Below, in pieces: positions 1 through 12,010 of a DNA stretch of 64,000 bases. Within the stretch, counting starts at the first letter, position 1. Every line of letters begins with the position of its first letter. Origin of the DNA: Phytoseiulus persimilis (Eukaryota > Arthropoda > Arachnida > Mesostigmata > Phytoseiidae); NCBI GenBank assembly GCA_037576195.1, contig CM075103.1:36531250-36595249 (forward strand). Direction: 5' to 3'. The notes beneath the pieces were generated by a model. The model was not told where the DNA came from. It searched no databases and worked only from the letters and a program-made list of their open reading frames with translations. The translations under genes were made by a program, and so were the position numbers.

Positions 1-2039
1 TATGCTGTCGGATCCTCCCCTCGTAGCATCGGAATCCAATAATTTATTTATGAGCTTGAGCCACCCATGCTGACACTGTAGCTGTTTCTGAGGAGCACGT
101 CGCCACCGAGCTCGCGGGACGCCGGTTCTGGCGCGCCAAGAGGAAGACAACAAGCAGGATACGTAAGCACGACGATGAATATTGAAGGAATCGCGGTCAA
201 AATTGTGAGCAACACCAAGTGGGAGTCTTATGCTGCTGCTAGTCCGTGACGCGGTCGATTACACTCGATCGATTCCTAACAGAGGATCCGTCGCACGAGG
301 CACCCGGGAGCCCGAATCCTTACTTTCCGGCAAGAATAGATGCTCCTGTATCGATCGACGCTCCCACCGTGCCGACTTTTCGCGAAGCGTTTCATGTGGA
401 GCTTCGGAGCTCCCTGATGCGACTCCCAGCGACTGTTTCTTGCGACGAAGCTCTTTCACTGAGAACGCTCCCGGGTTTTGAGGCTCCGGACACACAGGAA
501 TCGTAACAGGAATAACGAACCATCCTGGCTGGCCCCGCCTGCAGTCCAGATTCACACATTCGCGATCGATTTCATCATTATATTCGATTCAATTCTTCCC
601 TATCATTCACTTCCGCCCGGTATTCATCACAAACATTATTCCGCCAACGGTTCTCCGCTTCCCCTACATGTCTCTCAATCTCTGCTCCTACATTCCTTCT
701 CAGGAGTCGTTTCCGCCACTGTGGGTCAGACACGCTGGTCGAGGATCACTCATAAAACATCCGAGGCTTGGGATCCAGTTGTGTGACTCACCGGACATAT
801 CCGAATCCCTAATGCCCTTTCTGGAGCCCTGGTTCGACCTCCTCTACCCCCGCCATATCCCGCGTCCTCTCGGACCCCTCTCCCTCTTCCAATGTTCCTT
901 CACGCTCCCCGAAACCCCTCGTAAATCAGGCTTATTCGCTCCCTTCGCTCTCATACAACAATACTTCTTGTGGCGGCCGGCTTTTTTCTTCGTGGCGTTC
1001 TCCTCTTATTGGGGTCTATACACGAGGGTCAATTTGCCGCTCGAGCGGTCTCCGGAGGCTCACGGTGCTCAAGGAGCTCGGGGGAATTAACGCTGGCGAG
1101 CCGAAGCAAGAATTGTCCCGAAACGACATCTATCCGGTCGATTGGGTGTGATTGCGATGCCATGCATGCAAACGGCCTCTACGTGCCCGTAGTCGATTTC
1201 CAATGGGCTCGCCATTTCGTGCAATGCCGCGCGGCGCGCGCCAAGCCACCATTCCGCTGCCTCATCTCAACCGTGGTTCATCGCAAGGTGGCTGCCGCGA
1301 CGGCGGCGGCGGCGGCGGCGGAAGAAGGAGCAGCTGCAAGGATCGCAGGTCGGCTCCTGCTGCTGCGGGTGCACTCCTAGGAGCGAAAGGGTCGCTTCAG
1401 GGATCGGCGATCTGAACCCTGGGCTGAGAGTCGACGCCATTTTGACTCTGTTTGACGGATACTAAGCAAGTGTGAGCGCGCCGTCCGGTTCTGGGTGGTC
1501 GTCCGTGAGTATCCGGAAAGCTGCCAATCGTTAACGGTGGATTGTTTAGAGAACGTTAGCGGTTAGCGGTTGGCGCTACGAGTCGCTCTCGAATCGCGGT
1601 CTGTTGCCAGCCGAGAGCCGTGGAGGAGATGGCCATAGAGACAGATCGCACTCCGTCCCTTCCTCTCGACTCTCGCCGCCTTTCTCCGCCGACTACAATG
1701 CTGCAGCCTCAGGGTTCCAGCACCCACTGAAGAGCGGGTCAGCCAATATGGCCACACTGTGACTTGTCGTTGTCGTTCTGTGCCCGTTCGGCTCTTTTGT
1801 GACTAGTGGCGACCGTGGATACGCAGACAGATCATCAACAGAGCTGTGTGGTAACTCCCCGAACCTTCGGTGTTTCAGGAACGTCGTGGGAACAACCAGC
1901 CAGTGGTCCAGTGGAAGAGACTCCGAGGCTTGCTGCGCAGTGCGGCGCAGCCACCGGTGACGTCTACCTGGCCTCCTGAGGGCCTTCATGGATTCCGAGT
2001 GAACTGAACTCAGGGGAACGTCGTCTGAGAGCTGCGAAA
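1..2039. other. Upstream/leader region of the TMEM132 gene, no recognised gene
   Basis: No open frame here resembles a known protein. The region probably holds the promoter and 5' leader of the TMEM132 gene that starts at 2040. A (CGG)n run of about seven units lies at 1301-1321 in a GC-rich stretch, compatible with a leader or promoter-proximal segment. The context of the ATG at 2040 is good, with A at -3. No TATA box or transcription start can be assigned by eye. UTR introns cannot be excluded. Confidence 0.4.
1301..1321. repeat. (CGG)n microsatellite
   Basis: About seven uninterrupted CGG units lie upstream of the TMEM132 coding region, inside a locally GC-rich stretch. Such a tract is a candidate for length variation. 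Confidence 0.8.
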
Positions 2040-5000
2040 ATGAACTCCGCATGTGTTTCGCTATTCGTCGTCGTCGGCCTCGCGGCGGGCTTCGCAGCCG
2101 CCCAGAAGGTGCAGGTGGACCAGGGCGAGATCCTGTTGTCGACGGTGCCCAACGACACCGTCGACGCGAGTCTCGTCAGGTTCGCGCTGATCTCGTCGAA
2201 TCGGGCCACCGTCAGGGCCACGTTGGGCCCCTACCAGTCTAGTCAGACGGTCTATCACAACCGCTCGGATGCTGAGCTTTCCGCGCACGTCGTCCACAGC
2301 ATCGTCTACCGACACAATCCGCAGGTCCGCGTAGTGTTCCACGCCAACCAGAGAGACTTCCGACCGCTCTGCATCACGCTATACGGCCAGCTCATCGACT
2401 CGAAGAAGGCGCCGCTTCTCGCCAAATGTCAGCCCGTCAAAGAGAACTCGGCCTGTATGGCCGAACTCATCGTCCCCGCGGATTGGTGGCCGAACGCGTG
2501 GCTCGAGAACGGCGCTGGCTCGCACAAGAGCAGCAAGAAAAGCAAACCCCACATCGAGTTGTCGTACGCCACCTCGGACGACCTCAACTGTCAGATGGGA
2601 GGCCTTAACTCCGAGCTCAAGTCGGACGCCGCGAAGGAGTCCCAACCGAAACATATCGCTCGCATACCCCTCAGCCCCGTGCACGCGACCTACGAGAAGA
2701 TCACGATGAAGGACTCCCCGATCGAGGTCTTCCTCCCCGAGAACCCGCTTTACCCGAAGAACGTCATCTACGCCCCCGTTTTCGTCAAGCAGAACGTGCG
2801 CCAGTTCGTGATCGGGGCGAACATTGTCGGCGGTCTTCACGTCGAGCGGCTCGAACCCGTCGCGAAGCACGTCTGGAAAGTCGCCATCGAGACGACGGGC
2901 AACCAGAAAATCCGCATCACATGCAGCCGCATCGACGACAGCCCGCCCTCGATGGGGCAGGCGGAGCACGTCTTCGACATCCTGTTCCGCGTCGACACCG
3001 ACCCCGACAGCCTGATGGCCGCCGAGCAGGCGATCGAATGGGTGATCGACGAGAAGATACAGGCCGTTTCCCAGCTCAACATACAGAAGGACAAGGTGCA
3101 GAACATCCTGGTCATAACGCGGAGCCGCGACCTCATCAACACCGCCATCATCACCGGCAGTCAGGTGTCGCAGCTCGTGAAGCTGATCATGATCTCGGAG
3201 GCGGGTCAGATGAGCGACGTAACCCACAAAGCATCCTGTCATTCTAGCGACGAGTCCGTGCTCAAAGTGTCCCCGTCGTGCACGTCGATCTACCTCGACG
3301 GCTCGGAGAGCCGCTCGTCGGCCAACGTCTCCATCCACGTCAAGTACTCCGGCCACATGAGCGAGAGCTACTTCACCGTGTGGACGCCCGAGACTCCGTT
3401 CACGATCAGCGTCTCGGACGAAAAGCTCAGCCACGTGAAGCAATGGCACGCTCCCTCCAGCACACCCCACAACTGGCATCGCAACGCCATCCCCAAGGAC
3501 GAATGCAAACTGCGTTTCCAGCAGAGCATCGTCAAAGTCTACACCCGCTTCGTCTCGATCAACCACAACTCCGGCAGGGAGAACTATTTACTCGGGAAGC
3601 GCCGACTGGTCGCCGACATCACCGACATGGCGCACATCCGCAGCTCGAACTCGCACGTGGCGTCGTTCGTGGCGCCGAACGTCCTCACCGGCGTTCACCC
3701 TGGCAAAGCCGACATCCAGGTCGTGGCGCCCACGACCGGGAAGATTCTCGCCACCAAATCGCTGAGGGTCACCGCCGAGAAAGAGGTGATCACCTCCCTG
3801 AACGCCCGGGTCGTGTCGGGCCTGAACCTCGCCGTCGCCTCAGACGTCGAGACGAACAGCAACAAGGAGAGCAGCCATTCCGAACGAGCCATCTACGTCG
3901 CGAAGGTTTCCACCGACGAAAAAATGACTTCCCGCTACCAGGAAGCCGTGCTTGACGTGACCCTGCGCTTCTCCGACGGCACCGAGATGCCGCTGGAGAA
4001 CTTCAGTCCGACCGAGTACAACATCACCGTCGACACGCTCGATCCGAACGTGGTCGTTGTCGCTCCGAACCAGAATGGCAACACCGGCGCCCATCCGAGG
4101 ATCATCTGCGTGGGTCAGGGATCGGGAGACCTCCTCTCGATAACGCTCGAAACGAGCGACCTCTGCGTCAAGCGCGGAGGAGCCATCCAGGACGCCGCCG
4201 TCTACGTTTCCTGCATGCCCAGCAACCCCGACAACTATCTGTACCAGGACGCTCAGGTCCCGCGCAAGTACAGCGCTGCGGTCACATTCGAACTCCAGCC
4301 CCAAAGCCACAAGAACCCGCACTACCCGCTCGTGAACCATCACCTCAACCACCTGAACGGAGGCCCACTCCAAGTGGGTCTCTACACCCTCTTCGGCGTC
4401 TTCTGCATGGCGCTCCTCGCGTTCGTGGCTTCGTGCAGTGTTTTCGCCGTGCACATCAAGAACACGCGCCAGCAAAACACCAAGGATAACTCCCAGGACT
4501 GGGTCTGGCTCTCCAAAGAAACTCTCGAACAGGCTGTGCGACCTAAAAACGTCTCCAAGTTCCCCAACATCGTCGTCAACCCCATGAGCGATCTGGAAAG
4601 CTGCCGCAACCTCGGCAACTTCGTTTGCAGCGATGGCTTCGGCGCCAACATTTGCCAGAACGGAGATCTCGCCCGCAGCGCCGGCAGCCAGCAGCGACAA
4701 GAAGGCCGAATCCTGCTCCCGGGCAGGGCTCGTCCTCTCCCGAGCGAGCCGATCGACGTCCGCAACAACAACGTCCCCGCCGACAACAACAACGATCAAG
4801 CGAACATCGATATGAATCAACAGATCACGGCTCGGAACCCCGCCGCAGTCGATGCTCTCTCGTTCAACCAAATCTTCGGTAGCGGCGCGGAAGGCACGGA
4901 CAAGGTATCCCCGTCCACCGACAGTGGAGTGGCGCAGTCGCCAGGTTTCGAGTCCGTGAACGAAGTTACTGTGCGCTCGAATATGCTCGCCGAGGTCGAG

Positions 5001-5300
5001 GACCTCGGCTCGTCCCGGTTTTCGGCCGGCTCGCCAACTGCGGCAAGCTGCGCCAGTGGCAACGTGGTGATGGTGTCGGCCGCCGGTAGCAGCCCAAGCA
5101 GCAGCAGTGCGTCTCGAAGCATTATCGTGAACCCTATCGACGAGTTGGGTGAAGACGAATTGGAACCTCCGCCCGTGCCTCCGCACCGTCAGCCAGGAGG
5201 CAACGACACACTTAACTGGCGACGCCTCGAGCGGCAATACAACAACAACAGGGAGAAACTCGCCGAGTACCTCGACTCTCTACAGGAGTCGATTGCCTAG
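2040..5300 (+). CDS. TMEM132: TMEM132-family single-pass type I membrane protein, intronless
   Basis: This uninterrupted frame encodes 1086 residues. Residues 1-21 form a signal peptide (a hydrophobic stretch ending in AAA). A large extracellular region follows, of the TMEM132 N-terminal and Ig-like/cohesin type. One transmembrane helix lies at about 780-806, and the cytosolic tail is about 280 residues. Just inside the membrane the family motif DWVWL occurs at 820-824. Near the C-terminus a proline-rich PPPVPPHR segment (1043-1050) could bind SH3 or WW domains. The family is thought to link the cell surface to the actin cytoskeleton in adhesion and neural tissue; the Drosophila member is detonator. 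The ATG at 2040 has A at -3 and directly precedes the signal peptide, so the start is well supported, and the stop is TAG at 5298-5300. The tail is rich in Ser, Asn and Pro and looks disordered. Lack of introns is unusual, since vertebrate members have several. The family call is firm; the cellular role is inferred from relatives. Confidence 0.93.
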   Translation: MNSACVSLFVVVGLAAGFAAAQKVQVDQGEILLSTVPNDTVDASLVRFALISSNRATVRATLGPYQSSQTVYHNRSDAELSAHVVHSIVYRHNPQVRVVFHANQRDFRPLCITLYGQLIDSKKAPLLAKCQPVKENSACMAELIVPADWWPNAWLENGAGSHKSSKKSKPHIELSYATSDDLNCQMGGLNSELKSDAAKESQPKHIARIPLSPVHATYEKITMKDSPIEVFLPENPLYPKNVIYAPVFVKQNVRQFVIGANIVGGLHVERLEPVAKHVWKVAIETTGNQKIRITCSRIDDSPPSMGQAEHVFDILFRVDTDPDSLMAAEQAIEWVIDEKIQAVSQLNIQKDKVQNILVITRSRDLINTAIITGSQVSQLVKLIMISEAGQMSDVTHKASCHSSDESVLKVSPSCTSIYLDGSESRSSANVSIHVKYSGHMSESYFTVWTPETPFTISVSDEKLSHVKQWHAPSSTPHNWHRNAIPKDECKLRFQQSIVKVYTRFVSINHNSGRENYLLGKRRLVADITDMAHIRSSNSHVASFVAPNVLTGVHPGKADIQVVAPTTGKILATKSLRVTAEKEVITSLNARVVSGLNLAVASDVETNSNKESSHSERAIYVAKVSTDEKMTSRYQEAVLDVTLRFSDGTEMPLENFSPTEYNITVDTLDPNVVVVAPNQNGNTGAHPRIICVGQGSGDLLSITLETSDLCVKRGGAIQDAAVYVSCMPSNPDNYLYQDAQVPRKYSAAVTFELQPQSHKNPHYPLVNHHLNHLNGGPLQVGLYTLFGVFCMALLAFVASCSVFAVHIKNTRQQNTKDNSQDWVWLSKETLEQAVRPKNVSKFPNIVVNPMSDLESCRNLGNFVCSDGFGANICQNGDLARSAGSQQRQEGRILLPGRARPLPSEPIDVRNNNVPADNNNDQANIDMNQQITARNPAAVDALSFNQIFGSGAEGTDKVSPSTDSGVAQSPGFESVNEVTVRSNMLAEVEDLGSSRFSAGSPTAASCASGNVVMVSAAGSSPSSSSASRSIIVNPIDELGEDELEPPPVPPHRQPGGNDTLNWRRLERQYNNNREKLAEYLDSLQESIA

Positions 5301-10247: not shown

Positions 10248-11291
10248 ATGGCGGAAAGCCCTGAAGAGAGGATCCGGCGTTACAAAGAGTCTATAGAGAA
10301 CGCTGAGAGCGTTTTCAAAACTGAGATCGAAAGGAACGGGTGTCCTCGAGTCAGTATCAGCGAGTATGACCCCCAAACTCTGATTGGCAAAGGCGCGTAC
10401 GGAGAAGTATTGAGGGCTGAGAAAGATGGTTCCACCTTCGCCGTCAAACAGCTGAGCAAGCAACTTTACCGCGACAAGAAAAAGACACATATGGTCATCC
10501 AAGAGAAGAAGTATTTGTGGGCCATGTCCAGCCCGTTCATCGTTCATCTTTTTTGCGCGGCAAAAGATAGAGACTTCTTGTACCTTGTCATGGAATATAC
10601 GCCGCACGGTGATTTGAGGAAACTCGTGAAGGGCAGAAAAGTTTCAGAAGATGTGGCGCGTATACTCATCTCCCAGATTGTCATGGCTCTCGAGTATGTC
10701 CACGCCTGCAACGTCATCTATCGTGACCTGAAAGCTGCGAATATCCTGGTCTTCCCCGAGGGTCGTCTGAAGCTGGCCGACTTTGGAATCGCTCTGCTCA
10801 GTTCCGCATCGACGAACACGTTCTCCGGAACGCCCCCGTACGTACCCCCCGAAATGATAAACAAAGCTTTGTACAACCACACGGCGGATTGGTGGGCCGT
10901 CGGAATCGTGTTGTTCATGATGCTGCTTGACCAACACCCGTTCGCCCTGCCCGGAGACACCAAAGAGCAGGTGTTCAAACATGTGTTGGGGAAGCGCATA
11001 CAGAATCTGGACGACTCGACTCTCTCCGAGGAGGTGAAGGATCTGCTGAGGAAGTTGCTCAACAAGGACTACACTGAACGGATCGGTGGCCTCGCGAACG
11101 GCATCAACGACATCAAGGAGCACCCGTGGTTCGCGCCAATCGACTTCGATCAACTGATTGTGGCCGAGCAATTCTATAAGTTGAAGCCGGAGCACACCTT
11201 CGCAGCGAAAGAGACTCCAGTTAGTGACGATGCGTTCTCACACGGGAATGACGACGAGGATCCTCTCAAAGACGATCTCGCTGAGTTCTGA
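10248..11291 (+). CDS. PKA-like AGC serine/threonine kinase, intronless, altered substrate site
   Basis: The frame encodes 347 residues, close to the length of a PKA catalytic subunit (about 350). The kinase core is intact: glycine loop GKGAYGEV (47-54), lysine K67, helix-C glutamate E86, catalytic YRDLK (D160, N165), DFG (178-180) and DWW (214-216). The activation-loop threonine is T191 in TFSGTP. The stretch LLRKLLNKDYTERIGGLANGI is clearly PKA-type, and the C-terminus ends LAEF, echoing the FxxF tail that docks on the N-lobe. By alignment with PKA, E170, E203 and E230, which bind substrate arginine, become A164, P197 and M224, while E127 becomes D122. The APE motif reads PPE (200-202). There is no N-terminal glycine for myristoylation. 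The ATG has a strong context (A at -3, G at +4), and an ATTAAA signal lies 30 bases past the stop. A catalytic kinase with non-PKA specificity is likely. The lack of introns suggests intron loss or an old retrocopy. Confidence 0.92.
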   Translation: MAESPEERIRRYKESIENAESVFKTEIERNGCPRVSISEYDPQTLIGKGAYGEVLRAEKDGSTFAVKQLSKQLYRDKKKTHMVIQEKKYLWAMSSPFIVHLFCAAKDRDFLYLVMEYTPHGDLRKLVKGRKVSEDVARILISQIVMALEYVHACNVIYRDLKAANILVFPEGRLKLADFGIALLSSASTNTFSGTPPYVPPEMINKALYNHTADWWAVGIVLFMMLLDQHPFALPGDTKEQVFKHVLGKRIQNLDDSTLSEEVKDLLRKLLNKDYTERIGGLANGINDIKEHPWFAPIDFDQLIVAEQFYKLKPEHTFAAKETPVSDDAFSHGNDDEDPLKDDLAEF

Positions 11292-11634: not shown

Positions 11635-12010
11635 ATGGCGGGCTACAGAGAAGCGAGCATCGAGGCTTATAAAAACGCCGTCGCTGACGCAGAGGCTGCT
11701 TTCAGGGCTGCGGTCGCCGACGACGACTGCCCGCCAGCGATACTAAAAGTTTCGGAGTCTTTGGACTACCCGGCTCCGGTAGATACGGAGCATTTTACAG
11801 AGCCAGGAGGAACGGAGCATCGTTTGCAATCAAGGAGCGCCAAAAGGCACGTTCTCGTCGATTTGGGAACAAGTTTCTGTGCGAGGCAACGGCCAATCTC
11901 ACCATTGTGGGACTGTCCGTTAGGTCAGAATGTCTCGGAAAGTTTACCTAATCATGGAATGCATGCCTCACAGCGACTTGAATCAAGACTGTTATCAGTA
12001 ATCTTCTCGA
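11635..12010 (+). pseudogene. Truncated, frameshifted paralogue of the PKA-like kinase
   Basis: The segment begins ATAACGATGGCGG, the same start context as the upstream kinase. It encodes an N-terminus with the same spacing of conserved residues (I..YK..., AE..F, CP). A frameshift after about 11750 moves the kinase domain to another frame, which reads LPGSGRYGAFYRARRNG then SFAIK, matching the glycine loop and catalytic-lysine strand of the neighbour. A helix-C/beta-4 region follows (NKFLCEATANLTIVGLS). After a second shift the hinge reads VYLIMECMPHSDL against LYLVMEYTPHGDL in the intact gene. Homology fades near 12010, before the catalytic loop. This is a tandem duplicate that is broken and probably non-functional. 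The low protein identity suggests an old duplication. A spliced functional gene is unlikely because the catalytic loop is not found downstream. Confidence 0.85.

Follow-up and report, generated by a model that had tools for sequence, protein, structure and literature searches.

An intact, intronless open reading frame (ORF) at 10248..11291 on the forward strand of the window, a 64,000-nucleotide stretch of the Phytoseiulus persimilis genome (contig CM075103.1, positions 36,531,250 to 36,595,249), encodes a 347-aa AGC kinase that resembles the PKA catalytic subunit in sequence, tree position and predicted fold. The same genome was found to contain at least 37 PKA-like ORFs that are intact and intronless, this gene included, and it is probable, in our judgment, that these form a PKA-derived family in which the catalytic core has been kept while the surfaces facing substrates and the regulatory (R) subunit have changed repeatedly. 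As far as sequence comparison goes, the loss of substrate-contacting acids from this kinase is a property of an expanded family, which moves the question from one odd gene to the expansion itself.

The sequence-only reading of the gene had matched the PKA acids E127, E170, E203 and E230 to D122, A164, P197 and M224, and the same equivalences were obtained in three alignments (one phmmer and two MAFFT runs), the gap closest to the four sites lying 3 residues past D122 and in the phmmer alignment only. In PKA, E127 contacts the P-3 arginine, and E170 and E230 form the P-2 arginine pair (PMC3219626). The first of these is conservatively replaced by D122 (10611..10613), and the acid is lost at A164 (10737..10739), M224 (10917..10919) and P197 (10836..10838), the last in place of E203. 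The claim that all four acids bind the P-3 and P-2 arginines was correct for E127, E170 and E230 but needs correction for E203, which contacts the P-6 arginine in the PKA-PKI crystal (PMC1783638) and in a simulation with Kemptide also lies near the P-2 arginine (PMC4183626). No acid that could replace the 170/230 pair was seen at the positions examined in the alignments of the kinase. Positions 129 and 133, also named for the P-2/P-5 site (PMC3219626), are occupied by Arg and by Lys (MAFFT) or Val (phmmer), respectively, and the residue at position 241 depends on the alignment, being Pro in one and Asp in another. Asp also occupies position 127 in half (4) of the eight non-PKA AGC rows from the same genome in which all four acids are present, and D122 is best read as a conservative change. 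The alignments thus support a kinase from which the P-2 arginine pocket is gone and the catalytic residues are not, and which probably tolerates a P-3 but not a P-2 arginine. A basophilic R-x-x-S/T preference may therefore persist, because the P-3 acid survives as Asp; the proposed loss of RRxS/T preference is supported for the P-2 pocket, with its Ala/Met pair, and less so for the P-3 site.

The catalytic residues were found to be kept. The ORF begins with ATG, holds no internal stop and matched Pfam Pkinase (PF00069) with an E-value of 5e-60 and 203.6 bits, against a gathering score of 31.7. All five catalytic residues (K72, E91, D166, N171 and D184 in PKA) are present. The glycine-rich loop GKGAYG (residues 47-52, 10386..10403) is followed by K67 (PKA K72, 10446..10448), E86 (E91, 10503..10505), the catalytic base D160 (D166, 10725..10727), N165 (N171, 10740..10742), DFG at residues 178-180 (10779..10787), T191 at the place of the activation-loop T197 (10818..10820) and PPE at residues 200-202 (10845..10853), where PKA has APE. 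These features had been reported from the letters alone and were all located as described, and the assignment to AGC kinases akin to PKA is likewise borne out by the residues kept and the predicted fold. By alignment and predicted fold, the chain ends with LAEF (11277..11288) at the place of the hydrophobic motif, which we take to be the terminal FTEF in PKA; relative to F-x-x-F, the first Phe is replaced by Leu and the second is retained, and a strict F..F/Y end was found in 27 of the 37 family members. The N-terminus reads MAES in place of MGN, the PKA-C consensus (PMC12608923), and PKA Gly2 thus has no counterpart. Taking the first in-frame ATG as the start throughout the family, an MG start was seen in 8 of 37 rows (L026, which was trimmed, was not scored).

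The predicted structure of the kinase follows a PKA-like fold up to the last residue, and its best PDB rows were PKA, to which it is 31-37% identical (37% in the tree alignment). Maximum-likelihood analysis of 47 rows united the 37 copies in a single clade (100/99), with PKA and a PRKX-like gene next to it. Within the clade, the kinase of the window occupied the basal position in an 11-row subclade (99/94), and L036 and L043 had long branches; the split between PKA plus the family and seven other AGC rows had a support of only 90/59. Among the comparison rows, the labels MAST, NDR, PKN, MSK, citron-like and PRKX-like were assigned from motifs. By sequence, tree and predicted fold, the kinase is placed with PKA.

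The family was delimited by a protein search of the genome (180,977,233 bases in 127 contigs) with the 347-aa kinase, which returned 123 matches, many of them full-length single-exon frames of 29-39% identity. Fifty loci were fetched (30 + 20), and the removal of other kinases and of the broken copies L032 and L040 left the 37 ORFs, a lower bound, as the weak kinase matches were not all fetched or classed. A second genome search, with the distant member L028 as query, recovered all 37. The median pairwise identity among these frames was 31%, and the nearest paralogue of the gene in the window was 37-39% identical to it. Many family loci are clustered; one cluster at C3:24.96-24.98 Mb, for instance, holds six of them and another at C3:26.78-26.80 Mb holds four. 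The genome's normal PKA gene (L051, C2:12.77 Mb) bears introns, has all four acids and consists of exons 72-95% identical to mammalian PKA; some 125 kb from this gene lies L007, the family copy closest to mammalian PKA (47%). Two similar copies of the E127-bearing exon were seen in the normal gene (about 1769-2003, minus strand), which suggests alternative exons.

Across the family, all four contact sites were acidic in only one member of 37 (L007), compared with 9 of 10 non-family AGC rows of the genome, PKA included (the exception being the AKT-like L062), so that the loss exceeds chance. The PKA residue itself was retained at E127 in 0/37 (Asp in 27), at E170 in 10/37 (Asp in 4), at E203 in 2/37 and at E230 in 18/37 (Asp in 3). 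Arg or Lys occupies position 230 in eight members (L008, L016, L017, L023, L024, L028, L013 and L022), which is, at the level of predicted charge, a reversal within the P-2 pocket; six of the eight fall in one 7-row group with a support of only 89/29. Mapped on the tree, the fewest changes of acid state were 7, 9, 2 and 8 at positions 127, 170, 203 and 230, respectively, and the fewest changes to Arg/Lys at 230 were 3, counts that are rough, since 10 of the 44 tree forks are weak and the contact columns were included in the tree. The catalytic residues K72, E91, D166, N171 and D184, by comparison, were kept in 36, 36, 33, 35 and 34 of the 37 members, and all five in 32. In L038, the P+1 loop is lost.

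The surface expected to meet the R subunit is also altered. For the PKA residues that we take to make this contact, retention in the family was 0/37 for W196, 14/37 for R194, 5/37 for K213 and 10/37 for K285, and in the kinase of the window W196 is replaced by Asn and R194 by Ser. Y247, given as an R-subunit contact in PMC3625193, was retained in 4/37 and is Phe in this kinase. Because these further contact positions are changed, independence of the canonical R subunits is plausible. A search for cyclic-nucleotide domains revealed three tandem intronless RII-like ORFs (L052, L053 and L054; G000:C1:37374300-37391300) of 345, 332 and 310 aa, of which the second has TTG as its first listed start. 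Each contains two cyclic-nucleotide-binding stretches by Pfam, and neither a docking domain nor any further Pfam match was detected in them; a genome-wide search for the RIIa docking domain gave only two other places. The best solved relative of L054 was RII-beta (E 4.5e-46). The equivalents of the inhibitor site read GRETV, RCKTV and RRETV, two of the three having lost one of the two arginines, and these genes are possible partners of the kinase family. In its second cyclic-nucleotide site, L053 has Ala where the other two have Glu.

A different account of the same data would be relaxed constraint alone, with duplicates in birth and death and a groove that erodes toward pseudokinases and pseudogenes and gains no new specificity. 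Although we consider this rather unlikely, a number of observations speak for it. A dead sister copy, frameshifted and truncated, with homology in three separate stretches, lies beside the gene at 11635..11986 (plus strand) and has the intact gene as its closest family match (E 4e-5); stops were also found in L032 and L040 and in another fragment at C3:24976644. At least one catalytic residue is missing from 5 of the 37 members (L018, L025, L033, L036 and L043), which are likely pseudokinases, so that activity cannot be assumed family-wide, and the HRD Arg is lost in four. Among 80 columns conserved in the 10 AGC control rows, for which the median family retention was 0.89, E203, E170, E230 (tied) and E127 ranked 4th, 8th, 14th and 23rd from the bottom; V123, G125 and D175 are lost more thoroughly than the arginine contacts, which means that general drift, as read from these columns, contributes to the family's changes. 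The highest NG86 omega, 0.69, belonged to the pair L025/L027, which includes a likely pseudokinase. Other observations speak against erosion alone. The 37 frames are open at a median identity of 31%, each of the five catalytic residues is kept in 33-36 of them, and when simple neutral drift to 62% identity was simulated 200 times, the frame was broken in every run. Omega was 0.13-0.69 for seven of the eight closest paralogue pairs, the eighth being saturated, and 0.13-0.48 for the six scorable pairs other than L025/L027; these pairs share members, dS is about 2 in some, and a YN00 value was obtained for 4 of the 8 only. The family therefore appears to evolve by birth and death under a constraint that is purifying but loose.

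The catalytic losses, the decay of the HRD Arg and of non-contact columns and the limits of the omega values all weigh against a PKA-derived family with a preserved core and remodeled surfaces, as do several further points. Omega could not be estimated for the gene in the window itself, its nearest paralogue being too distant at the identity given above, and acids at both 170 and 230 are present in 10 of 37 members, so that their loss is common but not universal. Intronlessness is also a weak sign of retroposition, because other kinases in this genome have long single-exon frames and the coding sequence of insect PKA genes is reported to lie within one exon (PMC3625193). It is distinctly improbable that the kinase is simply a divergent ordinary PKA, still basophilic and under cAMP and R-subunit control, in which D122 and acids of the C-tail take over from the lost contacts. 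An acidic residue such as D122 is found in several AGC kinases, the C-tail holds the acidic run DDEDPLKDD, and both a normal PKA and R-subunit-type domains are present in the genome; the Arg at 129 by the P-2 pocket, the Ala/Met at 170/230 and the changes of W196 and R194 argue against it. Membership in a different AGC family, one in which the acids are naturally absent, to which the low identity to PKA (37%) and the modest 90/59 split might point, is very improbable indeed, as the best PDB rows were PKA, the chain ends, as in PKA, at the place of the hydrophobic motif, and 8 of the 9 non-PKA AGC rows of the genome keep all four acids.

If the PKA-derived family with altered surfaces is accepted, its ancestor would be the PKA catalytic subunit gene of this lineage, made intronless either by copying or by intron loss, and its members would have multiplied by tandem and dispersed duplication. 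The 347-aa protein would be a working Ser/Thr kinase, with T191 probably mediating activation. Its P-3 subsite could still hold Arg through D122, and since the P-2 subsite would now be neutral to basic (A164, M224 and the Arg at 129), R-x-x-S/T or a quite different motif would be selected in place of RRxS/T. Canonical R subunits would probably no longer hold the kinase, because their pseudosubstrate and docking side chains would meet altered surfaces, and control would then fall to expression, localization or other partners. A more far-reaching version, to which we assign a small chance, is a second PKA-derived signaling layer of dozens of kinases with the PKA core and private grooves, in which RII-like brakes possibly co-evolved and some members, given the Arg/Lys at 230, may have exchanged basic substrates for acidic ones.

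The kinase shares with the PKA catalytic subunit (PRKACA/PRKACB; arthropod PKA-C1) a fold over almost the whole chain, the catalytic residues, the activation-loop Thr and a chain end at the place of the hydrophobic motif. It differs in its low identity, in lacking the P-2 acid pair, E203, W196 and Gly2, and in being an intronless member of a large family, whereas introns interrupt the coding part of the normal PKA gene of this genome. Intronless PKA copies have been described singly, as PRKACG and as marsupial copies (PMC3625193). PRKACG, the human C-gamma, is a retroposon of PKA C-alpha with testis mRNA and is possibly a pseudogene, but in vitro it was a functional kinase with variant properties (PMC3625193); it is a single copy confined to simians, unlike the dozens of divergent copies seen here. 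As a single kinase group that has grown massively within one animal lineage, the family recalls the CK1 superfamily of Caenorhabditis elegans, with 78 genes compared with 12 in humans and a reported sperm role for SPE-6 (PMC8527485), although CK1 is not an AGC group. The Drosophila-specific PPP enzymes, which show male-biased expression and include 6 novel type-1 members (PMC3137614), are another case of lineage-specific gene copies without introns in phosphorylation signaling, but they are phosphatases. By analogy with these kinases and phosphatases (PMC3625193, PMC3137614, PMC8527485), expression in the germ line might be guessed. This hint stays weak, because no parallel phosphatase expansion was seen in the genome (6 STPPase_N matches) and a 14-3-3 search gave 14 matches looking like a few multi-exon loci.

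Four PKA-C isoforms were reported for decapods in a survey of crustacean PKA (PMC12608923), and the N. cucumeris genome paper mentions Pka C1-3 and, in the parts examined, no PKA expansion. No description of a comparable PKA expansion was found in the open-licence literature, as judged from search listings. Few animal kinases are as conserved as PKA, a reference for how kinases read substrates, and some 37 natural derivatives in one genome would allow both substrate specificity and release from cAMP control to be studied through natural variation; the family also offers an example of a signaling enzyme in birth-and-death expansion.

A viral source was considered by scanning viral contigs with the family alignment (as a single peptide pattern), and of the 14 stretches matched none was confirmed as a relative. 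A second AGC expansion, intron-bearing and AKT-like, was observed in the genome, comprising L060, L061, L062 and some seven other loci. In a comparison with PDB, RAC-beta/AKT2 was the best match of both L061 and L062, and the other seven loci were assigned from match shape only. L062 also lacks acids at positions 203 and 230. Elsewhere in the window, a long ORF at 2040-5300 (plus strand) encodes a TMEM132 family protein, as identified by Pfam.
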